NCBI GenBank assembly: GCA_015058985.1
Contig: SVBH01000002.1
Coordinates: 114,727-151,995, forward strand
DNA from: Erysipelotrichaceae bacterium
GTDB lineage: Bacteria; Bacillota_I; Bacilli_A; RFN20; DUOF01
Direction of reading: 5' to 3'
DNA: 37,269 nucleotides
Below, piece after piece: positions 10,147 through 23,915 of the stretch. A program made the position numbers and the translations under genes. Position 1 is the first letter of the stretch, and every line of letters begins with the position of its first letter. The notes beneath the pieces are model-generated. The model was not told where the DNA came from. It ran no database searches and was given only the letters and a program-made list of their open reading frames with translations.

Positions 10147-11952
10147 ATGGAAGATATAAAACGTGTTCGTAATTTTTCTATTATTGCTCATATTGATCAC
10201 GGCAAATCAACTTTAGCAGACAGATTAATTGAATATACCAATACTGTTGAACAAAGAAACATGAAAGCTCAACTTTTAGATAGTTTAGACTTAGAAAGAG
10301 AAAGAGGAATAACTATTAAATTGAATAATGTTCAAATTGTTTATCATGCAGATGATGGTGAAGATTACATATTAAATTTAATAGATACCCCAGGACACGT
10401 TGACTTTACTTATGAAGTATCTAGATCGTTGGCAGCATGTGAAGGGGCACTTCTTGTCGTTGATGCTTCACAAGGAGTAGAAGCTCAAACGTTAGCAAAT
10501 GTTTATTTAGCAATAGATAATAACTTAGAGATTATACCTGTTATTAATAAAATAGATTTACCTAGTGCTGATGTAGATAGAGTTAAAAGAGAAATAGAAA
10601 ATGATATTGGTCTTGAATGTTCTCATGCTCCTTTAGTTAGTGCAAAGACTGGGCTTAACATCAAAGATGTGTTAGAAGCAATAGTAAAATATGTACCTTA
10701 TCCTCAAGGAGATAACAAAGCACCTTTGAAAGCTTTAATATTTGATTCATATTATGATGCATATCGAGGAGTTGTAGTTTTCTTAAGAGTTAAAGATGGT
10801 ACCATAAAACCAGGAGATAAAATCTTAATGATGAATTCTAAAGCAGTTTATGAGGTAATTGAGGTAGGAATAAAAACCCCTAATGAAGTGAAGAAGGATC
10901 GTTTAGAAGCAGGAAATGTTGGTTGGCTAAGTGCTAGTATTAAAAATGTTAATGATGTAAAAGTTGGAGACACGATAACATCTGCAACAAACCCTGCTAT
11001 TGAAGCTTTACCAGGATATCGCCAATTAAATCCAATGGTTTATTCAGGATTATATCCTATAGATAACAGTAAATACAAAGAATTAAAAGAGGCATTAGAA
11101 AAGTTAACTTTAAATGATTCTAGTTTAGTTTATGAAGCTGAGACTTCTCAAGCTTTAGGATTTGGTTTTAGATGTGGTTTCTTAGGTCTACTACACATGG
11201 ATGTCGTTCAAGAAAGAATTGAGAGAGAATATGGAATACCTCTTATTGTTACGTCTCCATCTGTTATTTATCATGTCTATATGACTGATGGTTCAATGAT
11301 TAAAATGGATAACCCTTGTAACCTACCAGAGATTACTAAGATAGATAGAATCGAAGAACCTTATGTAAGTGCTTCTATTATGTGTCCAGGAGACTATGTA
11401 GGAGCAATTATGGAACTTTGCCAAAATAAAAGAGGCATCTATACAGATTTGGTTTATATAGATGATACAAGAATGTCATTAAAATATGAAATCCCTTTAG
11501 CAGAAATTGTTTTTGATTTCTTTGATAAATTAAAATCATATTCAAAGGGGTATGCTTCATTTGATTATACTTTATCAGACTATAAATCCAGTAAATTAGT
11601 GAAAATGGATATTCTTTTAAATGGAGAAATTATTGATGCTTTCTCTACAATAGTTCACAAAGATTTTGCTTATGCAAGAGGGTCTAAAATATGTGATAAA
11701 TTGAAGGATATAATTCCAAGACAACAATTCGAAGTGCCTGTTCAAGCTGCAATAAATGGAAAGATAATTGCTAGATCTACTATCAAAGCGATGAGAAAAG
11801 ATGTTTTAGCTAAATGTTATGGTGGAGATATTACCAGAAAGAAAAAATTGCTAGAAAAGCAAAAAGAAGGAAAGAAAAAAATGAAAGCAATTGGAAGTGT
11901 TGAAGTCCCTCAAGAAGCTTTTATGGCGGTTCTTTCAAATGACGAAGATTAA
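10147..11952 (+). CDS. lepA: Elongation factor 4 (LepA)
   Basis: LepA is a translational GTPase related to EF-G, associated with ribosome assembly and back-translocation. GTPase motifs are intact: G1 AHIDHGKST (about 14-22), switch [11 protein letters not shown]3 DTPGHVDF (about 78-85) and G4 NKIDLP. The LepA C-terminal domain is present with [20 protein letters not shown] and RDIIPRQ-like [17 protein letters not shown] and [18 protein letters not shown]. Length 601 aa is standard. The ATG is behind AAAGGAGAG. An intrinsic terminator overlaps its stop codon. Confidence 0.97.
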
Positions 11953-11975
11953 AGATGATTTTTTCATCTTTTTTT
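11951..11975 (+). terminator. Intrinsic terminator after lepA
   Basis: AAAGATGA (11951-11958) pairs with TCATCTTT (11964-11971) around TTTTT, then a T-run. Confidence 0.85.
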
Positions 11976-12010
11976 ATTATAAAAAATGTTTAATTTTAGT
12001 GTAAAAAATG

Positions 12011-12038
12011 TTGAAAAATCATAATATAGTAGTAAAAT
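12011..12038 (+). promoter_or_regulatory. Promoter of the lipoprotein gene
   Basis: TTGAAA (12011-12016) and TAAAAT (12033-12038) are 16 bases apart, upstream of a GGGAGG ribosome site. The gene is bounded by terminators on both sides, so it should be transcribed alone. Confidence 0.6.
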
Positions 12039-12062
12039 TAAATTAAAACAGGGAGGAAAGTT

Positions 12063-13658
12063 ATGAATAAAACTTTGAAAAAATTATTGATGGGTCTTAT
12101 TCTGATTCCAGGACTTACTGTAACAGCAGCATGTGGAAAAGATAAAGATCCAGAAAATCCAGATGATGGAACAAGCCAAGAAGGCGGAGAACAAGGAGGA
12201 AGCCAAGGTGGATCACAAGGAGGAAGCCAAGGAGGTTCTGAAGGAGGAAGTTCTTCAGGATTAAATGCAACTGAACAAGCTGCAGCTTATACAACTTTAT
12301 ATGGACATGTAACAAATTTAACTGATGAAGAAACAACTAAAGTGTTAGCATACAAAGCAGATATGGTTGAAAATATGACTATGACTGTTAGTGAATCTTC
12401 AACATTAGACACAACTATTAAAGAGATGTTAAATGCAGGATTTGCTGAAATGGGAGATACTTATGGTGCAAGTATGTCAGCAGGTTATAATTTAACAACT
12501 GGTGAAGCTTATGCTGAATTTGCTGAAGGAGAAGGAGCAACAAGAGAAGTAACTGATGGAACATATATTATTAGAGAAGGAAATAATTATGTTTTATATG
12601 AATTAGAACAATATTGGGTTAATGAAGAACCTGAACCTGTTACTGAAAAATCAGCTTCTTATGTAGGAGCAGATTATTTAGTTAAATCAGAATATACTCT
12701 TGAAAGTGTTTCAGAGGGATTAGAATTTTTAGGATTAGTATCAGAATTTTCTACTTATGATGCTTTCAAAGCAGGAGCTATTGATTTCTTATTTGAAGAA
12801 ATGGGTGGAGATTTTGGTGTCAGTGCAAATGATGCTGTATATAATCTAACTTTAGCTGATGGAGTATATACATTATCAGCAACCCTTGCTAAAGATAATT
12901 TATCAGTAGATATGGACGGAATGACTGTTGTAGGAGATTTAGATGCTAAAATTGAATTTAAATTTAATACTTCTGGCATCCTTAACGCAGATTTTGAATA
13001 TGGAATGGAAGGAACTATGACATTCCCTAAAGAAATGTTTGAAGGACTTGTAGCAGAAGATGTTCCTGTTGATGTAGTAATGGTAGCTTCTTCTAAAACA
13101 CATGATTTCTCTACAACTTTAGATTCAGCTATTCTAGAAGCAGACTATAGTTCCTTTGTTGATGGAACAATTGAACCAATCGATGTTTATGTTGGAACAT
13201 ACATTGATGGAGTAAGCGTGGGATTGTACAATGGAGATGCTGTTTTTGGGGCAACTTTAGAATTACCAAATATAGAAGAACATTACCCAAATGCTACATA
13301 TACTGAATGGTATTTAGATGAAGAATGCACAATTTTAGCTTCAACATTAGAAACTTTACCTTCATATGATATTAGTCTATATGCTAGAACAGAAACTTTA
13401 GATGAAGGATATGCTTTAGTAACTATTGTTGGAAAACATCTAGATTATGATAACTACCTAAGAACTTCTTATCGATTGATGGAAATTGAATTAGAAGAAA
13501 CATGTGATTTAGGTGCATATTTTAGTGATAATCCTTATATAGTAGTTTCTGATATCACAGTTAATGGAGAAGCTGTTAATGAAGACCATGTCATTACATT
13601 AGTAAGTGGTCAAAAATATGTTGTTCAATATTATTTCACTGAAGATTATGGTGAATAA
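12063..13658 (+). CDS. Large surface lipoprotein, unknown function
   Basis: The product (531 aa) begins with a lipoprotein signal peptide: KKLLMGLILIPGLTVTAAC, lipid-anchor Cys24. A low-complexity linker follows (about 39-66), built of GGSQ/GGSE units, likely spacing the domain from the membrane. The body is acidic (pI clearly low) and rich in Thr, Glu, Ala and Gly, with strand-like patches, resembling LppX/LolA-like bacterial lipoproteins only in general style. Near residues 375-450 there is a motif with WYLDEECT and LYARTE like an InlB B-repeat/Flg_new cell-wall module. The function is not recognised. Monocistronic between a promoter and a strong terminator. Confidence 0.88.
   Translation: MNKTLKKLLMGLILIPGLTVTAACGKDKDPENPDDGTSQEGGEQGGSQGGSQGGSQGGSEGGSSSGLNATEQAAAYTTLYGHVTNLTDEETTKVLAYKADMVENMTMTVSESSTLDTTIKEMLNAGFAEMGDTYGASMSAGYNLTTGEAYAEFAEGEGATREVTDGTYIIREGNNYVLYELEQYWVNEEPEPVTEKSASYVGADYLVKSEYTLESVSEGLEFLGLVSEFSTYDAFKAGAIDFLFEEMGGDFGVSANDAVYNLTLADGVYTLSATLAKDNLSVDMDGMTVVGDLDAKIEFKFNTSGILNADFEYGMEGTMTFPKEMFEGLVAEDVPVDVVMVASSKTHDFSTTLDSAILEADYSSFVDGTIEPIDVYVGTYIDGVSVGLYNGDAVFGATLELPNIEEHYPNATYTEWYLDEECTILASTLETLPSYDISLYARTETLDEGYALVTIVGKHLDYDNYLRTSYRLMEIELEETCDLGAYFSDNPYIVVSDITVNGEAVNEDHVITLVSGQKYVVQYYFTEDYGE
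12183..12250 (+). repeat. In-frame tandem repeat coding GGSQ units
   Basis: Imperfect 12-base units (such as GGAGGAAGCCAA) are repeated about five times in the lipoprotein linker. Such repeats can change copy number by slippage without breaking the reading frame. Confidence 0.75.
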
Positions 13659-13679
13659 TAATTAAATATGCTCAAATTT

Positions 13680-13709
13680 AAAGGATTTGCCTAATGGTAA
13701 GTCCTTTTT
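13680..13709 (+). terminator. Intrinsic terminator after the lipoprotein gene
   Basis: A 12-base stem (13680-13691 with 13696-13707, two G-T pairs) is closed by TAAT and ends in a T-run. Confidence 0.88.
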
Positions 13710-13741
13710 ATATTGCAATTTTTTATTTAAAGAAAAAATAC

Positions 13742-13771
13742 TTTAATTATTTATAATAATTATGGTAAAAT
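13742..13771 (+). promoter_or_regulatory. Probable promoter of the jetABC operon
   Basis: TTTAAT (13742-13747) and an extended -10 TGGTAAAAT (13763-13771) have an 18-base spacer. A second TATAAT occurs at 13752-13757. The site lies between the preceding terminator and the AGGAGG of jetA. Confidence 0.45.
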
Positions 13772-13801
13772 TATGTCGATGGGACAATAGGAGGTTTTGC
13801 T

Positions 13802-15217
13802 GTGGAATTATTTAATGTTATACCAAGCAATATGTTTTCAGTTTTCACCTCTAAGAACAAAGAAGTATATGCCTCAAGTTTGTTAATACTTAGACAATTA
13901 TTCAAACAAGAAGTTATGATTGAAAAAGAAAAATTAACTTCTTCATTAATTAATAGCCTTGAACAACAACTATACAGCATTGACATGAGTGAAGAAAATG
14001 AAGTAGATGTAAACAAAATTGGTAAAGATGCTTTGTCTTTAGCACGTTTTATTATTCGTAAATTTAGAGATACTGGTTGGATTGAAGTAGAATATGAAAA
14101 CAAAACATCGTTTGTAGAACATATTACTTTGCCACCTTATACAATTAAATTACTAAATACTTTACATGATATCGTTGAAGAAGAAACAAGAGAATATTCA
14201 ACTTATATGTTTGCGATTTATTCAAACTTAAAACAAGCAGACTTAGAAAAAGAAGAATATCGTTATACTTCACTAATTAATGCTTATGATAAAACTTTAG
14301 AATTAGAGAATGAATTAAAACTTTTATACCATAACTTAAGAAGAAAGTTTAATAGATTATCAGTTTTAAACACTGTAAATGAAATGCTACATGATCACTT
14401 TGATGAATACCAACAAAGAATCATTAATCAAATTTATTTACCTTTAAAAACTAAAGACTCAATTACTAGATTCAAAGGAAGTGTCTTTGCAATCTTAAAT
14501 AAATGGTTAAAAGATAAAGATATAATCGATGGAATTAGTCAACAAGCTGCTAAATATCATCATGAAGAAGATGACTTTAAGGCAAAACAAGAAGTCTTGA
14601 TGAAGATGTATCATATCATTGATAAGATTAATGATTTAGAGGAACTATTAGAAAAGATTGATATTAAGAACAATGATTATGTTTCTTCTACCGCAGATAA
14701 AATGAAATATTTATTAAACTCTGATAAATCAATCAAAGGAAAATTAGTAAAGATTATTGAAAAACTTGCAGTGGAACATGAATATGGTGGTTCTTCATGT
14801 TTAGAGATTTGTAAAGATAAGATTAACTTTATGTACAATGGATATGTGACAGAACGTTCTGTTTTTACAAGAGCTAATCCTACTAAACTAGGCGATGCTG
14901 AACCTGTCGCAATAAATGTCTTTGATGATGATGTAGGAAGTGCTTTAGGAAATCAATTTATTCTTGATACTTTAAACCCTTATTCAACTGAAAAAGTATA
15001 TGAGTTCATGGAAAGACAATTGATTGATAAAAATGAAATTAAAAGTACTGATTTAAGAATTGATAACATTCAAGATTTAGTTATGACAATCTTTGCAATG
15101 TTAAAAGGAGATTCTTCAAGAAGCTTCTATAAAGTAGAAATGTTTGATGGAATGGTACAAAACTGGGAATACAATATTCCCAATATGGAATTTAAAAGGA
15201 GGAAGAAAGCATGCTAG
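13802..15217 (+). CDS. jetA: JetA-like kleisin of a Wadjet/MksBEF-type SMC complex
   Basis: The opening MELFNVIPSNMFSVFTSKNK, with a following Y-A-S-L-L-I-L-R-like helix, matches the Wadjet JetA (DUF5716) family, the kleisin partner of the SMC-like ATPase. The 471-aa product is helical throughout: a winged-helix-like N-terminal part, a long central coiled coil (about 150-300) and a C-terminal domain. It starts at GTG behind TAGGAGG. It overlaps the next gene by 7 bases (ATGCTAG), and the order A-B-C is that of jet operons. Family assignment is from pattern memory, not a search. In this role it would bridge the JetC heads and recruit JetB. Confidence 0.82.
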   Translation: MELFNVIPSNMFSVFTSKNKEVYASSLLILRQLFKQEVMIEKEKLTSSLINSLEQQLYSIDMSEENEVDVNKIGKDALSLARFIIRKFRDTGWIEVEYENKTSFVEHITLPPYTIKLLNTLHDIVEEETREYSTYMFAIYSNLKQADLEKEEYRYTSLINAYDKTLELENELKLLYHNLRRKFNRLSVLNTVNEMLHDHFDEYQQRIINQIYLPLKTKDSITRFKGSVFAILNKWLKDKDIIDGISQQAAKYHHEEDDFKAKQEVLMKMYHIIDKINDLEELLEKIDIKNNDYVSSTADKMKYLLNSDKSIKGKLVKIIEKLAVEHEYGGSSCLEICKDKINFMYNGYVTERSVFTRANPTKLGDAEPVAINVFDDDVGSALGNQFILDTLNPYSTEKVYEFMERQLIDKNEIKSTDLRIDNIQDLVMTIFAMLKGDSSRSFYKVEMFDGMVQNWEYNIPNMEFKRRKKAC

Positions 15218-15852
15218 ATGAAGAAAAATATTATATGCTAACTGACTTAGAAAAAGAAAAATTTGCTAAAGTTGGTTCATATTTATTAGCCCATACTTTC
15301 TTAACAAGAGAGATTTACGAAACAAAAGATAAATTAGGCAAGATTAATCCTGATTATCGTTTTGTTGAAAAATATTATGAAATGTTTGATAAATACTACG
15401 ATATGTTTGGTTATAAATTAGAAAAAGATGATGTCTATGGAATTATCCAAATCAACAATAAATATAACCATAACATAGTTCGTTTAGATAAGTTTACAAC
15501 TTTATTGCTTTTGTCTTTAAGAATGATTTATGATGATGGAAGAAGTCAAAGTGCTTATTCTTCAAATAATGCTGTTTACACTTCTATCGGTGGCATTATT
15601 CAAAAAATGTTTGACTTAAAGATTATTACTAAGAAACCTACAATCAAAGAAATGTCTGAAGGTTTTAAAAATATTAATAGATACAATGTTATCTCTAAAT
15701 TAGATAAAACATTTGAAGATATAACTAGTAATATCGTGGTTTTACCTACAATCACTAAGGTTGTAAGTAATGAAAAGATAAATGCTATTTTCGCAATGGT
15801 TTTTGACAATGAGTTAGGAACTGAAAGTGAAACTGTTGGTGAAGGGAATTAG
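15211..15852 (+). CDS. jetB: JetB-like (DUF4194, MksE-type) subunit
   Basis: The 213-aa product has the pattern of DUF4194 proteins, the winged-helix KITE-like partner of Wadjet/MksBEF complexes. Typical parts are the helical start, YYDMFGYKLEKDDVYGIIQI (about 62-81), and the helix LDKFTTLLLLSLRMIYDDGR (about 92-111). In the complex it binds the kleisin JetA and stabilises the ATPase core. It starts within jetA and ends 7 bases before the first possible jetC ATG, so the three genes form one operon with coupled translation. Confidence 0.83.
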   Translation: MLDEEKYYMLTDLEKEKFAKVGSYLLAHTFLTREIYETKDKLGKINPDYRFVEKYYEMFDKYYDMFGYKLEKDDVYGIIQINNKYNHNIVRLDKFTTLLLLSLRMIYDDGRSQSAYSSNNAVYTSIGGIIQKMFDLKIITKKPTIKEMSEGFKNINRYNVISKLDKTFEDITSNIVVLPTITKVVSNEKINAIFAMVFDNELGTESETVGEGN

Positions 15853-15859
15853 GTGATAA

Positions 15860-18800
15860 ATGATGAAAAAGATGGAAAAAGTAACCTTAATTAACTGGCA
15901 CTATGTTTCTTATGAAACGATGGAACTTAAGGATGTTAACTTCTTAACAGGAAAAAACGGATCTGGAAAGACTACTATCATCGATGCTTTCCAAATCTTA
16001 TTACTTGCAGATACAACAGGACACTATTTCAATAAATCAGCATCTGATAAATCAAGCCGTACTTTAAAAGGATATTTAAGATGTGAAATTGGAGATGGAG
16101 AACAAGGTGTTCAATATTTAAGAAATGGACGTTTTACAACATATGTTGTGGCTATCATCAATGATGACAAGTTAAATAGAAAATTCACTATTGGAGCTGG
16201 TTTTGATACCTATGAAACTGGTGATTATGATACTAGATTCTTTATTTGTGATGGTGTCGTTGAAAAAGATGATTTACTAAATAAAAATGTTGCCGTTTCT
16301 ACAAAAGAATTGAAATTAAAACTAATGGAAAAATTTGGTAAAGAAGTTGTTAACTTCTATGAAACAAATGTTTCGTATAAAGAAGCTTTAAAAATTAAAT
16401 TAGGAAACTTAAATAATAACTTCTTTACTTTATTTAAGAAATCCGTACCATTTGCTCCTATTTCTGATATTGAAAAATTTATTACAGAATATATTTGTGA
16501 TGTTAAATATCAAATTGATATTTCTTCAATGCAAGAAAACATTAGAGCATATAAGCAACTTGAACTTGAAGCTGATATTATCGCTAAAAGAGTAGAAATT
16601 TTAAAGAATATTGAAGATGCTTATAATGATTGGCATAATGATGAAACTAAATTAAGAATTCAAAAATATATGTTAAATAGATTAGATTTAATGGTCAAAG
16701 AAAAACAAATTAATGTTTTTAAAGAACAAATTGAATCTAATGATGATGACATTGCTTATTCTAAAACATTAATTCAAAAGAATGCTGCAGAAATTGCTGC
16801 GTTAAGTGTTGAAAAAGAAAAACTTCTTGAAGAAAAATTCTCAAGTGATGCTTTTAAACAAAAAGCTTCTTTAGAACAACAAGAAGAGCAATTGAAGAAA
16901 CAAATAGAAAGTTTAGATTATAAAGTAGATAACCTAAAAGATAGTTTTGCATCTTACTATTCTGGCTGGAATAATGTCTTAAAAGATATCAATAACTATA
17001 AAGATAGTGATGATTCTTTCAAAGATGTTAAAGATTTATCTAGAAGAATTGCTGCTAATATAGACTTGTTTAATATTAATAACAATGATTTATCTTCTAT
17101 TGAAAGAAAAGATTACGTCTCTTTACAAGCTTCTTTAAGCGAATTTAAGAACGTTTGTTCAGGAGTTGCTAGAGAATGTGAAAGTTTAGGTAAAGAACAA
17201 TATAGAACTAGGGAAGGTTTGTTTAATGTAATCAACTCTTTAAATAAAGGTGTTAAAGTATACGATGCTAGACTTTTAAAACTAAGAGAATTAATAAAAC
17301 AAGCATTATATGAAAAATACCATAAAGAGATAGAAGTATCTATTCTTGCAGATATGATTGAAATTAAAAATAGAAGATGGGCTAATGTTATCGAAGGATA
17401 TTTAAGCAGTCAAAAATTCTATTTATTTGTTGAACCTAATTATGTAAATGATGCTATCGCCATTTATGATAAGATTAAATTTGAATATAACTTATTTGAC
17501 TTTGGTATCGTTGATACTGCTAAGATCATGGAATCAAAACACGATACATATAAAAATGCTTTATCAGAAGAAATCACAACGGATAACAAATATGCAAGAG
17601 CATTTATTGATATGACTATTGGTAGTTTAATCAAGTGTGATCGAGTTGAAGATTTAAGAAAATACAATCGTTCTATTACTGATAGCGGTATGTTATATCA
17701 AGGATATGTTGCAAGACAAATCAATAAAGATAGATGGCGTAATCCATTCATTGGTAACAATGCTTTAAAATCTCAAATTGAATTAGCTAAAGCACAAATC
17801 AAAGAATGCGAAGAAACTATGATTGCTTTAAAAGAAAAATTAGCAATGTTAAATGTTGTAAATGGACTTGAAAATGTCAATAACTATCAAATCGAAAGTT
17901 TAGTAACTATCGGTCAAGAAGTTAAAGATTTACCAATGTTAAAAGAACAACATTCAATATTGTTAAATGCTATTTCTTCTATTGATTCTAGCTACATTAT
18001 GGTTTTAAATAACAAACTTGAAACTGTTACTAAGAAATTAGAATTATTGAATAACGATAAAGAAGATATTATTTCTAATATTTCTAAATTAGAAACAGAT
18101 AATGAAAGAATTAAAGAAGAATTATTACCTGGTCAAGAAAGAATCATTGAAGATGCTAAAAACAAAATCAATGCTTCATTCACTAAGGACTGGATTACTG
18201 AAGTTGGAGAACCAACATTCATCGCAGAAATTTCTACTAAACAAGATATTGATAGATTATTCAAAGTATATCAAAATGAAATTGCTTCTTTAGACAATGG
18301 ATTATCTAGAAAATTCAATAAGGTAGTTAACTTAAGAAGTTCTTATGTTACAACTTATAAATTAGGATATGATGTTAATGATATCTCTAATAAAGTTTTC
18401 TCTGATGAATACAATGAATTCTCTACTAACTTACTATCAAGTTATAAAGATAAGATTGTTAGTGCTAAAGAAAATGCTTTAATTCAATTTAAAAATGATT
18501 TCCTATCTAAGTTAAAAGGAAACTTTGATACTGTTAAACTTCAAATTGAAAAACTAAATGAAGCACTAGAGGATTCTACATTTGGTAATGACTCATATCA
18601 CTTTGTTGTTAACCCTCGTCCTGAGTATCGTGAGTACTATGATATGATTAATGATCCTATGCTAGTTGAAGGTGTTACTTTGTTTGATGATGCATTCAAT
18701 GAAGCTTATGGTGAAACAGTTGAAAACTTGTTTAGACAAATCACTTATGTTGATGATGAATTAAGTGGCAATATGAAAGGTGAAATTGCTAAGAATATTG

Positions 18801-19207
18801 ATAAATATACTGATTATCGTACATATCTAAAATTTGACCTTATCGTTAAAGATGAAGCAGGAAGAAAACAATTCTTGTCTAAGACACTTCTTAAGAAATC
18901 AGGAGGAGAAACTCAAACTCCTTTCTATATCTCAATTCTAGCTTCATTTGCTCAACTTTATAGAGTTAGTGAAAAGAATGCTAATGACCCTGGTACTATT
19001 AGACTTATCATCTTTGATGAAGCTTTCTCTAAGATGGACAGCGAAAGAATTCAAGAAAGTGTTAAGTTATTAAGACATTATGGCTTACAAGCTATTTTAT
19101 CAGCACCACCTGAGAAGATGGCTGATATCGTGCCTCTTGTTGACCAAACCTTATGTGTCATTAGAGATTCTAACAAGGCTTTAATAAGAGGTTATAATAA
19201 AATATAG
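15860..19207 (+). CDS. jetC: JetC-like SMC-family ATPase (MukB/MksB-like)
   Basis: SMC-type motor (1115 aa) that extrudes DNA loops. Visible parts: an N-terminal head with Walker A GKNGSGKTT (about 31-39) and the nearby GHYFNKSASDKSSRTLKGYLR stretch typical of JetC; coiled coil (about 240-370); hinge-like central region (about 480-620); second coiled coil (about 660-800); C-terminal head with signature SGGE (about 1014-1017) and Walker B IRLIIFDEAF (about 1046-1055). Catalytic Lys37 and the DE pair are intact, so it should hydrolyse ATP. ATGs at 15860 and 15863 both fit; the AGGTGAT ribosome site slightly favours the second. No JetD (topoisomerase-VI-like nuclease) gene follows: a terminator and rsmE do. 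Confidence 0.88.
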   Translation: MMKKMEKVTLINWHYVSYETMELKDVNFLTGKNGSGKTTIIDAFQILLLADTTGHYFNKSASDKSSRTLKGYLRCEIGDGEQGVQYLRNGRFTTYVVAIINDDKLNRKFTIGAGFDTYETGDYDTRFFICDGVVEKDDLLNKNVAVSTKELKLKLMEKFGKEVVNFYETNVSYKEALKIKLGNLNNNFFTLFKKSVPFAPISDIEKFITEYICDVKYQIDISSMQENIRAYKQLELEADIIAKRVEILKNIEDAYNDWHNDETKLRIQKYMLNRLDLMVKEKQINVFKEQIESNDDDIAYSKTLIQKNAAEIAALSVEKEKLLEEKFSSDAFKQKASLEQQEEQLKKQIESLDYKVDNLKDSFASYYSGWNNVLKDINNYKDSDDSFKDVKDLSRRIAANIDLFNINNNDLSSIERKDYVSLQASLSEFKNVCSGVARECESLGKEQYRTREGLFNVINSLNKGVKVYDARLLKLRELIKQALYEKYHKEIEVSILADMIEIKNRRWANVIEGYLSSQKFYLFVEPNYVNDAIAIYDKIKFEYNLFDFGIVDTAKIMESKHDTYKNALSEEITTDNKYARAFIDMTIGSLIKCDRVEDLRKYNRSITDSGMLYQGYVARQINKDRWRNPFIGNNALKSQIELAKAQIKECEETMIALKEKLAMLNVVNGLENVNNYQIESLVTIGQEVKDLPMLKEQHSILLNAISSIDSSYIMVLNNKLETVTKKLELLNNDKEDIISNISKLETDNERIKEELLPGQERIIEDAKNKINASFTKDWITEVGEPTFIAEISTKQDIDRLFKVYQNEIASLDNGLSRKFNKVVNLRSSYVTTYKLGYDVNDISNKVFSDEYNEFSTNLLSSYKDKIVSAKENALIQFKNDFLSKLKGNFDTVKLQIEKLNEALEDSTFGNDSYHFVVNPRPEYREYYDMINDPMLVEGVTLFDDAFNEAYGETVENLFRQITYVDDELSGNMKGEIAKNIDKYTDYRTYLKFDLIVKDEAGRKQFLSKTLLKKSGGETQTPFYISILASFAQLYRVSEKNANDPGTIRLIIFDEAFSKMDSERIQESVKLLRHYGLQAILSAPPEKMADIVPLVDQTLCVIRDSNKALIRGYNKI

Positions 19208-19234
19208 AATATTCCTTAGTGAATATTCTTTTTT
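19206..19234 (+). terminator. Intrinsic terminator closing the jetABC operon
   Basis: AGAATATTC (19206-19214) and GAATATTCT (19221-19229) pair perfectly around CTTAGT, followed by T5. It separates jetC from rsmE. Confidence 0.85.
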
Positions 19235-19246
19235 ATAGGAGGACAT

Positions 19247-19951
19247 ATGCAATATTATTTTGTAGATAAGAAAAATGATAGATTTGTATTACAAGATAGT
19301 GATATTCATCATATTTTGCATGTTTTAAGGGCTAAAACTGGTGAAAAAGTAGTTTTTAATAACGAAGGAAGTCAATATTTGGTTTCTTTGAAAATAAGTC
19401 AAAAAAGTGTCGATTATGAAATTCTTTCTAAATTAGAAGATAAAAGAGAATTAAATATTGAGACAACTCTTATTGTAGGATTACCAAGACTAGAAAAATT
19501 TGAATGGATAATCCAAAAAGCTACTGAGTTAGGAGTAACTAAAATAGTTCCATATATTTCTAAAAGATCAATAATTAAATTGGATGATAAAAGGCAAACA
19601 TCTAAAGTGGAAAGATGGCAATCTATTGCGAAAGAAGCAGCAGAACAATCTAGAAGGTGTTCCATACCTAAAATAGAAAATGTCATTTATCAAAAAGATT
19701 TAAAAAAATATTTGTCAAAAACTAACCTATTGGCCTATGAAGAAAGTAAAGAATACACTTTATTAGATAAAATAACTAAAGCTGAAGAAAGTATTACATT
19801 GCTGGTAGGACCAGAAGGTGGCTTTGATAAAAGCGAAGTAGATTATTATGTGAATTTAGGTTTTGACTCTGTTAGTTTAGGAAACAGAATATTAAGATGT
19901 GAGACTGCGGCTATCTTCTTAGCAAGTTTAGTATCAGTTTACCACAATTAA
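19247..19951 (+). CDS. rsmE: 16S rRNA (uracil1498-N3)-methyltransferase
   Basis: RsmE methylates U1498 in 16S rRNA near the decoding site, using S-adenosylmethionine. The SPOUT-class knot motifs are LVGPEGGFDKSEVDYY and SLGNRILRCETAAIFLAS at the C-terminus; ERWQSIAKEAAEQSRRCSIP-like RWQSIAKEAAEQSRRCSIPK is also typical. Length 234 aa is normal. The ATG is behind TAGGAGG. No clear promoter separates it from the jetC terminator, so it may depend on read-through or a promoter within jetC. Order rsmE-mtaB follows B. subtilis yqeU-yqeV. Confidence 0.95.
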   Translation: MQYYFVDKKNDRFVLQDSDIHHILHVLRAKTGEKVVFNNEGSQYLVSLKISQKSVDYEILSKLEDKRELNIETTLIVGLPRLEKFEWIIQKATELGVTKIVPYISKRSIIKLDDKRQTSKVERWQSIAKEAAEQSRRCSIPKIENVIYQKDLKKYLSKTNLLAYEESKEYTLLDKITKAEESITLLVGPEGGFDKSEVDYYVNLGFDSVSLGNRILRCETAAIFLASLVSVYHN

Positions 19952-19978
19952 GGCAATTCTTAATGAATTGCTTTTTTT
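19950..19978 (+). terminator. Intrinsic terminator after rsmE
   Basis: AAGGCAATTC (19950-19959) pairs with GAATTGCTTT (19965-19974) with one G-T pair, loop TTAAT, then T4. It overlaps the rsmE stop codon. Confidence 0.85.
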
Positions 19979-19982
19979 ATTG

Positions 19983-19991
19983 TGCTAATAT
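19983..19991 (+). promoter_or_regulatory. Possible extended -10 promoter of the 130-aa gene
   Basis: TGCTAATAT fits an extended -10 element directly behind the rsmE terminator tail. No -35 box is clear. Confidence 0.35.
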
Positions 19992-20012
19992 TCCTGCAAT
20001 GAGGTGATTCAA

Positions 20013-20405
20013 ATGGCATCTAAATATGGAAATTCTTTCTTTATGAGTGAAGAAATAAGAAAAATAGCAAGAGAAAATTTATATAATAAATTAAAGCAAT
20101 ATGATATATTTAATACTCTTTTAGACGCTCATGTAATTAATATTAGTAACACTTTAATTTCAAGTTTACACACTTACGTATCTAACAATAATTACAATAA
20201 TGATGATTATCGTAAATTGTTAGATGGAGTGATAAGAAGTGAATTTCATAAATATAAAATTTTTAAAAGAAGCGAACTTTTAATCAATAACATCATTGAT
20301 GATACATTAAGTATATTTTTTATGAATCTATGCAAAATATCTGAGTATGATGGAAATTTAGAAACATCAGCAGGAAAAAACATTATCGCATTTATTAAAA
20401 AATAG
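20013..20405 (+). CDS. Unrecognised small helical protein, 130 aa
   Basis: Not recognised. I place the start at the ATG at 20013 because the in-frame GTG at 20004 lies inside the GAGGTGA ribosome site. The product is soluble and helical with no cysteine cluster (only one Cys) and no membrane segment. Residues 8-30 form a basic-acidic helix (EEIRKIARENLYNKLKQYDI). The position between rsmE and mtaB, where Bacillus has no gene, gives no functional hint. It is flanked by an intrinsic terminator on each side, so it is probably a single-gene transcript. Confidence 0.7.
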   Translation: MASKYGNSFFMSEEIRKIARENLYNKLKQYDIFNTLLDAHVINISNTLISSLHTYVSNNNYNNDDYRKLLDGVIRSEFHKYKIFKRSELLINNIIDDTLSIFFMNLCKISEYDGNLETSAGKNIIAFIKK

Positions 20406-20425
20406 AGTAAAATCTATTTTTTTTT
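20399..20425 (+). terminator. Intrinsic terminator after the 130-aa gene
   Basis: AAAATAGA (20399-20406) and TCTATTTT (20413-20420) pair perfectly around GTAAAA; the T-run continues to 20425 and runs directly into the -10 element of mtaB. Confidence 0.82.
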
Positions 20426-20433
20426 GTTATAAT
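20425..20433 (+). promoter_or_regulatory. Extended -10 promoter of mtaB
   Basis: TGTTATAAT, a perfect extended -10, starts at the last T of the preceding terminator. The expected start near 20440 would leave a leader of about 9 bases, falling inside the ribosome site. Confidence 0.6.
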
Positions 20434-20448
20434 GGGGAAGGTGATAAC

Positions 20449-21747
20449 ATGAAGTTAGTAAAAATAGTCTCTTTAGGTTGTAAAGTTAATCAATACGAAA
20501 GCGAAGCTGTATTAGAACAATTTAAAGAACAAGGATATGTTTTAGCAAAAAATGAAGAAATTGCAGATGTAGTAATTATCAACACTTGTTCTGTAACAAG
20601 TGTGGCTGATTCTAAAAGTAGACAAAGAATTAATCGTGAAATAAAGGAAAATCCTGGTGCAATAGTTTGTGCTATGGGGTGTTATAGTCAAGTAGGGTAT
20701 GAGGTTCTAAGAAAAATTCCAGGTTTATCAATTATTGTAGGAACCGACAAAAGGAATAAAATATATGAATATGTTTTAGAATACCAAAAAAATAAAACTC
20801 AAATAGTGGATATAGCCAATAGTAGAGAATATCAAGCTTTTGAAAATCAAAAACTAAGTTTCTATACTGACAATGTTAGAGTATATTTAAAAATTGAAGA
20901 TGGCTGTAATAATTTTTGCAGTTACTGTATCGTTCCTTATACAAGAGGTAGAGTCAGAAGTAGAAAAAAAGAAGATGTTTTAGAAGAGGCACAAAGATTT
21001 GCAAAAAATGGATACAAAGAACTAGTTTTAACAGGTATTCATACTGCTGCATATGGACAAGATTTAGGAGATTATAATTTTGATGATTTATTGGAGGACT
21101 TAATTAAAATTAAAGGCATTGAAAGAATCAGAATTTCCTCTATTGAAGATAGTGAAATAACAGATCGTTTTGTCCAATTGATTAAAGAACACAAAACAAT
21201 CGTTAATCATATTCATATACCTTTACAGTCTGGGTGTGATACAGTTTTAAAAAGGATGAATAGAAAATATAACACTGAATATTTTGCTGCCTCAATTAAA
21301 AAACTAAGAGAGGTTATACCTGATATTGCAATTACCACTGATGTTATAGTAGGATTCCCTGGAGAAACAGAAGAAGAATTTAATACAACCTATAAATTCA
21401 TAAAAGATTTAAATTTAACGCAATTACATGTCTTCCCATATTCTATAAGACAAGGGACATTAGCAGCTAAGATGCCTAATCAAGTAGCACCCCAAATAAA
21501 GAAAGAAAGAGTAAAGAAACTTATTAGTCTTTCTGATTCTTTATTCCAAAATTACATTAAAAACTATATTGGGGAAGTAGTAGAAGTTTTAGTAGAAAGT
21601 GAGAGAGAAGGATATTTAATTGGACATACTACCAATTATTTAAAGGTTGCATTCAAGGGAGATGCTTCTTTAATCAATCAAATAGTTCCAGTTAAAATAG
21701 AAAAAATGGAAGGATTGTTACTGGAGGGAATAAAAGTAAGTAATTAA
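20449..21747 (+). CDS. mtaB: tRNA (t6A37) methylthiotransferase MtaB
   Basis: Radical-SAM enzyme that adds a methylthio group to t6A37 of ANN-decoding tRNAs. The N-terminal UPF0004 domain opens with VSLGCKVNQYESE and has cysteines near 11, 47 and 81 (SLGC, INTC, AMGC) for one iron-sulfur cluster. The radical-SAM motif CNNFCSYCIVPYTRGRVRSR (around 153-172) binds the second. The C-terminal TRAM domain (about 375-430) contacts tRNA. Length 432 aa is normal. The order rsmE-mtaB is that of yqeU-yqeV in Bacillus. The ATG is behind GGAAGGTGAT. Confidence 0.96.
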   Translation: MKLVKIVSLGCKVNQYESEAVLEQFKEQGYVLAKNEEIADVVIINTCSVTSVADSKSRQRINREIKENPGAIVCAMGCYSQVGYEVLRKIPGLSIIVGTDKRNKIYEYVLEYQKNKTQIVDIANSREYQAFENQKLSFYTDNVRVYLKIEDGCNNFCSYCIVPYTRGRVRSRKKEDVLEEAQRFAKNGYKELVLTGIHTAAYGQDLGDYNFDDLLEDLIKIKGIERIRISSIEDSEITDRFVQLIKEHKTIVNHIHIPLQSGCDTVLKRMNRKYNTEYFAASIKKLREVIPDIAITTDVIVGFPGETEEEFNTTYKFIKDLNLTQLHVFPYSIRQGTLAAKMPNQVAPQIKKERVKKLISLSDSLFQNYIKNYIGEVVEVLVESEREGYLIGHTTNYLKVAFKGDASLINQIVPVKIEKMEGLLLEGIKVSN

Positions 21748-22782: not shown

Positions 22783-22986
22783 ATGTTCTACTATCTGAAA
22801 CAATCTTTAAAAGTAATAAATGTAAAAAGAATTCTAAATCTTTCACAAGAATATGTAGAAATACAACTGCCTAAAACAATCTTGAAAATAAATGGAAAAG
22901 AAATGTATATTTCATATATAGAAGGAAAAGAAATAATTATAAAAGGAAAAATAGATAAAATAATAATCGAGGATTTTAATCTATGA
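22783..22986 (+). CDS. yqfC: YabP/YqfC family sporulation protein
   Basis: The 67-aa product matches the YqfC family: EYVEIQLPKTILKINGKEMY, then YIEGKEIIIKGKIDKI. The family is expressed in the mother cell during sporulation in Bacillus, where it is transcribed with yqfD. The start ATG follows AGGGTGAT. It overlaps yqfD by 4 bases (ATGA), which fits coupled translation. The product is short compared with B. subtilis YqfC (about 93 aa). The biochemical role of the family is unknown. Confidence 0.88.
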   Translation: MFYYLKQSLKVINVKRILNLSQEYVEIQLPKTILKINGKEMYISYIEGKEIIIKGKIDKIIIEDFNL

Positions 22987-23915
22987 AGAAATTTTATGAT
23001 CGATATCAAATTTCATTCTTTGGTGAATTACATCTTCTAGATAGACTAAGAATATCTAATATTCCTTTTTCAAATTTTCACAAAATAGATGATTATACAT
23101 ATATTTTTGAAAGTTCATTCTTAAATAGAAAAAAAATCAAAAAACTTTTTCCATCTTCTAAGATAATTAAATCTAGGGGATTTTTGTCTTTTTTTAGATT
23201 CTTAATAATAGAAAAAGTAACGTTGATAAGTATCATTATTTCAAGTTGTTTTTTTATCTTTTTGTCCTCGAAAATATGGGATATTAAAGTGAAAGGAAAT
23301 TATCAAGAAATTAATAATTCTATAATTAAAGAACTAAAAACATATAATCTAAAAAAAGGAGTATTAAAGCCTAGCTTTAATTATCTTAAAGAAACGGAAA
23401 ATAAAGTATATAATTCCTTAGAAGAAGATATAGAATGGTTAGAATTATCATTAAGTGGCTCTGTTCTGTATGTGAATTATGTAAAAAGAAGAACTGCTCC
23501 TAATATAAAAGAAACAAAAGGAAAATTATACGCAAGTAAAGATGGTGTTATATCAAAAATTAATATTTTAAAGGGTAATGTTTTGGTTAAAGAAAATCAA
23601 TTTGTGAGAAAAGGAGAATTATTAGTTGATGATATTTTAGTAAATACTAACAACGAAGAAATTTATCTAGGAACAAGTGGAGAAGTATTTGCTTATACTT
23701 GGTATATAGTAGAGGTAAATTATCAAACAAAATTAGAAGATAGTTTAGATATTTTTAATGAAGCAAGAGATCAAAGTTTAGAAAAAATAAGATTAGAGTT
23801 ATCCCCAAATGAAAGAATAATAAAAGAAAATGTTTTACATTATAATGTAAATGATAATATAATTTCCATAAAGATACATTTCACACTTTATGAAAGTATT
23901 GGAGAGGAAATTTAA
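22983..23915 (+). CDS. yqfD: Sporulation protein YqfD
   Basis: YqfD is a mother-cell sporulation membrane protein made with YqfC. The 310-aa product has the cytoplasmic N-terminal part, one clear membrane segment (about 76-94: TLISIIISSCFFIFLSSKIW), and a large extracytoplasmic part. The characteristic VKGNYQEINNSIIKELKTYN and the lipoyl-like stretch ASKDGVISKINILKGNVLVKE (about 183-202 onward) are typical of the family. Its length is shorter than in Bacillus (about 398 aa). It overlaps yqfC by 4 bases and stops 1 base before phoH, so all three form one operon. Confidence 0.88.
   Translation: MKKFYDRYQISFFGELHLLDRLRISNIPFSNFHKIDDYTYIFESSFLNRKKIKKLFPSSKIIKSRGFLSFFRFLIIEKVTLISIIISSCFFIFLSSKIWDIKVKGNYQEINNSIIKELKTYNLKKGVLKPSFNYLKETENKVYNSLEEDIEWLELSLSGSVLYVNYVKRRTAPNIKETKGKLYASKDGVISKINILKGNVLVKENQFVRKGELLVDDILVNTNNEEIYLGTSGEVFAYTWYIVEVNYQTKLEDSLDIFNEARDQSLEKIRLELSPNERIIKENVLHYNVNDNIISIKIHFTLYESIGEEI

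Follow-up and report, generated by a model that had tools for sequence, protein, structure and literature searches.

The window, i.e., the whole analyzed stretch of 37,269 nucleotides, carries three genes, jetA, jetB and jetC, on the plus strand between positions 13,802 and 19,207. According to the ORF coordinates, neighboring genes either overlap or are separated by a 7 nt gap. The features of the locus are as follows (positions in the window):

13680..13707, plus strand: terminator-like hairpin 5' of jetA (terminator scan)
13802..15217, plus strand: jetA, kleisin, 471 aa, GTG start (Pfam JetA and PADLOC JetA1)
15211..15852, plus strand: jetB, KITE subunit (DUF4194), 213 aa, overlapping jetA (PF13835 and PADLOC JetB1)
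15860..19207, plus strand: jetC, SMC-type ATPase, 1115 aa (PADLOC JetC1 and PDB profile matches)
15950..15976, plus strand: Walker A of JetC, GKNGSGKTT, residues 31-39 of the translation; G31, N33, G36, K37 and T39 invariant in 18 homologues
18896..18910, plus strand: ABC signature of JetC, KSGGE, residues 1013-1017 of the translation; S1014-E1017 invariant in 18 homologues
19004..19024, plus strand: Walker B of JetC, LIIFDEA, residues 1049-1055 of the translation; D1053, E1054 and A1055 invariant in 18 homologues
19206..19235, plus strand: AT-rich hairpin with U tract 3' of jetC, possible intrinsic terminator (sequence and fold)

The first-pass annotation had described a three-gene operon for a kleisin, a DUF4194 protein and an SMC protein with intact Walker A, signature and Walker B motifs, and Pfam, PADLOC and the alignment of 18 homologues agree with this description. 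JetA matched PF18982 (DUF5716) over residues 31-467 (E = 5e-96), JetB matched PF13835 (DUF4194; E = 2e-16), and JetC matched SbcC_Walker_B (1e-24) and AAA_29 (1e-14). The PADLOC type I models were matched by JetA (JetA1, 7e-132), JetB (JetB1, 2e-59) and JetC (JetC1, E = 0 across residues 2-1113). Hence, the profile check that had been proposed placed the proteins in the JetA, DUF4194 and JetC families over nearly their full length. PDB profile matches of JetC were E. coli JetC (9qxt, 2e-29; 8as8, 1e-27). For JetA, an AlphaFold model (mean pLDDT of 80, pTM of 0.42) gave the kleisin of MukBEF (9gm7) and E. coli JetA (8as8, 8q72) as top PDB matches. As had also been noted, jetC is followed not by jetD but by rsmE, 40 nt downstream. 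Thus, by its sequence, the segment 13802-19207 was confirmed to encode all motor subunits of a type I Wadjet (JetA kleisin, JetB KITE, JetC SMC ATPase) and no JetD.

The intrinsic terminator proposed for the end of jetC held up in part. A hairpin followed by a U tract is present (19206-19229, -7.6 kcal/mol), and a terminator is plausible. It is not firm, since the hairpin is AT-rich, lies only 1.5 sd below shuffled sequences (z of -1.5) and is absent from the calls of the consensus terminator scan. The hairpins before jetA and after jetC, the latter being weak, suggest that jetABC is a transcription unit of its own. The base composition of jetABC equals that of the surrounding DNA, as had been claimed.

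Upstream of jetA lie lepA and a lipoprotein-like ORF, and downstream of jetC lie rsmE, a 133-aa ORF and mtaB. The lipoprotein-like ORF (531 aa, 12063-13658) contains a long GGSQ-type linker and matched no Pfam family above the cut-off, and the 133-aa ORF (20004-20405) is likewise without a family. Further downstream, YqfD (PF06898, putative stage IV sporulation protein) is encoded at 22983-23915 despite the small genome. The gene order of the window (10147-21747), lepA-ORF-jetABC-rsmE-mtaB, resembles that of family f28 (loci L103-L107), dnaK-dnaJ-padR-jetABC-rsmE-mtaB; in Bacillus, the dnaK operon region occupies the slot upstream of rsmE-mtaB.

The conserved neighborhood that the first-pass annotation had assumed was not found, as JetABC of relatives, including those of the same family, adjoins quite different genes. 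Comparing the JetABC loci of the class, the genes downstream of jetC were found to vary by family (rsmE, glycogen genes, ptsI, pepC, sepF, DUF3737 and others), and no neighbor is common to all families. Thus, JetABC has no conserved partner gene, and there is no common replacement effector. A replacement effector 3' of jetC was considered and rejected: families f3-f5 have glycogen-type genes at this place, and others have ptsI, pepC, rsmE, sepF or DUF3737. In f3-f5, the two genes of about 370 aa after jetC were read as glgC-type and the next gene as a glycogen synthase. The glycogen genes of f3, together with small genome size, would tentatively point to RFN20 rather than RF39 for the order of the window (PMC7301438). 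In Acholeplasma laidlawii, jetABC is followed by a gene for a 570-aa protein that looks like PTS enzyme I, and a relative's copy was confirmed by Pfam.

Distribution of JetD

The genome of the window (837 kb in 8 contigs, 87% complete) contained no JetD_C match and no match to a local JetD profile made from nine sequences of the class. Among the 58 genomes of the order, 46 have JetA, and JetD_C was above the cut-off in three (G038, G030 and G040). The local profile found the same three genomes and two marginal matches near 1e-4. G040 encodes a full JetABCD (L030), with JetD directly after JetC, besides a separate JetD-less JetABC. The second-copy Wadjet of G030 (L032 on contig G030:C32) is decaying, with jetA fragmented and the jetD frame interrupted by a stop codon. 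In G038, a JetD-like frame lies on a different contig from the JetD-less JetABC. A JetD hidden elsewhere was rejected because JetD_C and the nine-sequence profile gave only these three true cases. Accordingly, a Wadjet with its nuclease at another place, as the first-pass annotation had offered as one option, is disfavored: neither the genome of the window nor 55 of the 58 genomes of the order have a JetD detectable with Pfam or the local profile.

Where JetD is part of a JetABC locus, its position is uniform in the class: it directly follows jetC at all nine such loci. The same holds for four of six outside loci, i.e., those of Cohnella, Rossellomorea, Butyrivibrio and an Erythrobacter plasmid. 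On a 252 kb plasmid of Agathobacter rectalis (L124, NZ_CP143948.1), a gene for carbonic anhydrase comes after JetABC, and JetD is absent. The IFDR motif in the JetB N-terminus is the JetD-contact motif of the Wadjet studied (PMC10586767); in this class it is unrecognizable even in JetB of JetD-positive loci. The locus has the JetA, JetB and JetC of a type I Wadjet and lacks the JetD Toprim nuclease. Since JetD is absent from both locus and genome, the locus was filed as a JetABC of Wadjet descent and not as a Wadjet.

Smc-ScpAB and JetABC in the class

In the genome of the window, no SMC_prok_B match over the cut-off and no ScpA were found, i.e., no canonical SMC-ScpA. Its best SMC_prok_B match was 2e-9, whereas SMC-positive genomes reach about 1e-99 or better. 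ScpA exceeded the cut-off in 0 of the 58 genomes of the order, and all SMC-hinge matches over the cut-off in the order coincide with JetC genes, with no separate SMC hinge. A strong ParB is encoded in the genome, next to a ParA-like gene and to genes resembling mnmG and rsmG; in Bacillus, ParB is the loader of Smc. As a marker for a loader, ParB was set aside, its occurrence across the class being uninformative.

The survey was extended to 296 genomes of the class, most of them draft bins, with SMC_prok_B (TIGR02168) as the SMC model. The matches were bimodal (about 1e-99 or better versus 1e-15 or worse). SMC_prok_B was over the cut-off in 134/296 genomes, the count for ScpA was equal, and by hand tally 158/296 had neither. 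The genomes lacking both were distributed over the families as follows:

SMC/ScpA-less genomes (n = 158): f1 1, f3 6, f4 32, f10 4, f12 12, f16 23, f19 22, f21 5, f23 26, f26 2, f27 11, f28 14
thereof with JetA (n = 71): f1 1, f3 6, f4 14, f10 3, f16 19, f21 1, f26 2, f27 11, f28 14

A JetA copy without an adjacent JetD_C match was present in 70 of these 71 genomes (exception G179). JetA occurred in ten of the other 138 genomes, among which G273, with neither match, was counted, and JetD was adjacent in six of the ten. Thus, a JetD-less copy was found in 70/158 SMC-less genomes versus at most 7/138 others (Fisher 8e-16 by genome and 0.0025 by family, genomes and families being non-independent). 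JetD-less JetABC was also present in SMC-positive genomes, namely in f14 and one genome of f20. Together with the Agathobacter plasmid, this indicates that loss of JetD does not require loss of SMC.

Among the SMC/ScpA-less families, f16 includes A. laidlawii PG-8A and A. palmae J233 and is therefore Acholeplasmataceae. Both strains, with chromosomes of 1,496,992 bp and 1,554,229 bp, respectively (PMC4221730), are SMC-less and carry JetD-less JetABC (contigs G143:C1 and G217:C1). JetA is mostly absent from genus g150 of this family (0.7-0.9 Mb), which probably represents the phytoplasmas. Neither SMC-ScpA nor JetA was found in f12, f19 and f23 (60 genomes) and in 18 of the 32 f4 genomes. Apparently, these families and part of f4 are lineages without any SMC-ring chromosome complex; f19 nevertheless keeps a strong ParB. 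Hence, related bacteria with small genomes can do without such a complex, and its role is not strictly essential across these bacteria.

Inheritance and selection

In the JetC tree, the order of the window forms one clade (100/100), and its families f1, f2, f3, f4, f5 and f8 cohere. JetC was present in every genome of the order outside f4 that is 85% or more complete. The JetD-less JetABC occurs as a single copy and is nearly universal outside f4, and only some f4 genomes carry the form of the order. The comparison with relatives suggested by the first-pass annotation thus revealed a JetD-less JetABC that is order-wide and family-coherent, with variable neighbors. In f4 genus g29, the loci L035, L069 and L109 hold a different JetD-less JetABC on long branches, nested near JetD-positive Wadjets; it was apparently recaptured once the copy typical of the order had been lost. 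L029, a JetC from a metagenome-assembled genome labeled Eubacteriales, sits inside the clade of the order; it perhaps stems from a mislabeled bin or from transfer.

Families f26-f28 form a second clade and f16 a third. When Wadjets from other bacteria served as the outgroup, JetD-less clades were interspersed among JetD-positive ones, which argues for several separate losses of JetD. That the JetD-less form arose only once, with clades I, II and III together, was rejected (p = 4e-4). Clades I and II were kept apart when outside Wadjets were in the tree (AU p = 1e-4); in the tree without outgroup, both fall on the same side of one branch (99/97). Although the window and f28 have the rsmE-mtaB slot in common, the outgroup-rooted tree separates their JetABC lineages. 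Several lineages probably lost JetD independently of each other, and three to four of them are also without SMC-ScpAB.

The dN/dS values of all three subunits, determined for nine pairs from three clades, were 0.003-0.24 and mostly below 0.13. Thus, JetD-less JetABC is under strong purifying selection.

Function of JetABC without JetD

In Wadjet, JetABC extrudes DNA, and completing a small circle activates JetD (PMC10586767, PMC12287153). We propose, with a probability of roughly two in three, that jetABC encodes a complete loop-extrusion motor of the KITE-type SMC kind, derived from a type I Wadjet that lost JetD and now serves as the only SMC-type chromosome organizer of the cell, a function deduced from distribution, inheritance and selection. 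The JetC heads would bind and hydrolyze ATP, JetA would bridge them and join two motors via its N-terminus, and JetB would stabilize the kleisin. The JetABC dimer would reel chromosomal DNA into loops, by which sister chromosomes would be compacted and separated. Without JetD, there would be no cutting step and extrusion would end harmlessly, so that the motor could run on the chromosome. Since Smc-ScpAB is gone and no SMC-ring complex other than JetABC was detected in these genomes, chromosome organization and segregation would be its most likely task. For the broader notion that loss of JetD turned Wadjet motors, several times independently, into the only SMC-type chromosome organizer of lineages without Smc-ScpAB, including Acholeplasma and the order of the window, we see even odds.

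Type I Wadjets (JetABCD; E. coli GF4-3, Bacillus cereus Q1) share with the window system the JetA, JetB and JetC families, the A-B-C order and the intact ATPase. In contrast to them, the window system is without JetD, single-copy, kept nearly order-wide and found in genomes without SMC-ScpAB. MksBEF of Pseudomonas aeruginosa, credited with chromosome organization (PMC10586767), is likewise an SMC complex of the Muk/Jet type for which no nuclease is encoded. Its subunit families differ, as JetB belongs to DUF4194 and scored 19.6 bits against MksE (PF21980; cut-off of 27). Moreover, P. aeruginosa keeps SMC besides MksBEF (PMC7485682), whereas SMC-ScpAB is gone in the lineage of the window. Of the condensin of the MksBEF kind considered in the first-pass annotation, the condensin role is thus favored (no SMC-ScpA, single copy, near-universal outside f4, family-coherent, purifying selection), while the MksBEF identity did not stand, the sequences being those of a type I JetABC with MksE below the cut-off. 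MukBEF of enterobacteria, an SMC complex that replaced Smc-ScpAB (PMC10586767), has a kleisin whose fold resembles that of modeled JetA. However, the N-terminal MukB family (PF04310) covers only about 59 head residues of JetC, and weakly (2e-6; 28 bits, cut-off of 23), whereas the JetC models match over the full length; in this different lineage, a Wadjet-type motor remains. Smc-ScpAB, for which SMC_prok_B and ScpA are below the cut-off in the order and hinge matches occur only in JetC, shares with JetABC the presumed role.

Other functions are conceivable. JetABC, being otherwise of the type I Wadjet kind, might still act against plasmids if an unrelated nuclease encoded elsewhere replaced JetD, and a trans-acting nuclease of another family would be invisible to the JetD profiles. 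This is unlikely given the fixed place of JetD after jetC (9/9 class loci, 4/6 outside loci) and the lack of a replacement gene common to JetD-less loci. In addition, retention is nearly universal in the order, whereas defence systems occur patchily, and the full Wadjets found here are second copies (L030, L099). Equally doubtful is a defence without cutting, in which small circles of plasmids or phages are trapped or silenced, as was proposed for eukaryotic Smc5/6 (PMC10586767). Loop extrusion alone could compact small circles and Smc5/6 provides a precedent, but neither the association with loss of SMC-ScpAB nor the order-wide single-copy inheritance would be explained.

The SMC-positive genomes that keep JetD-less JetABC beside SMC (f14; L072, L075, L076, L078, L079) would fit DNA repair or another specialized task rather than global chromosome folding. 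As JetABC is the only SMC-ring complex found in the order of the window, this reading is no more probable than the two defence functions. By far the least probable is a decaying remnant, a Wadjet without JetD surviving by drift. Such decay is seen in the same order in the broken second-copy Wadjet of G030 with the stop in its jetD frame. Nevertheless, the three long frames are intact in dozens of diverged genomes, dN/dS in the clades tested is far below 1, and the ATPase motifs are invariant, all of which speaks against it.

The preferred reading remains that of the sole chromosome organizer. Loss of JetD giving rise to MksBEF was proposed before; a search of open-access papers found no report in which a JetD-less type I JetABC is the only SMC complex. 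Defence-system finders may count JetD-less JetABC loci as Wadjet. Since SMC is gone in these lineages, JetABC function is not masked by it, and as A. laidlawii is completely sequenced and grows in culture, the proposal is accessible to experiment there. Related families that lack both complexes serve as a natural control for life without an SMC ring. If the proposal is true, a defence system became a housekeeping condensin, a conversion that seemingly happened with type I Wadjet in several lineages in which the ordinary complex is gone.
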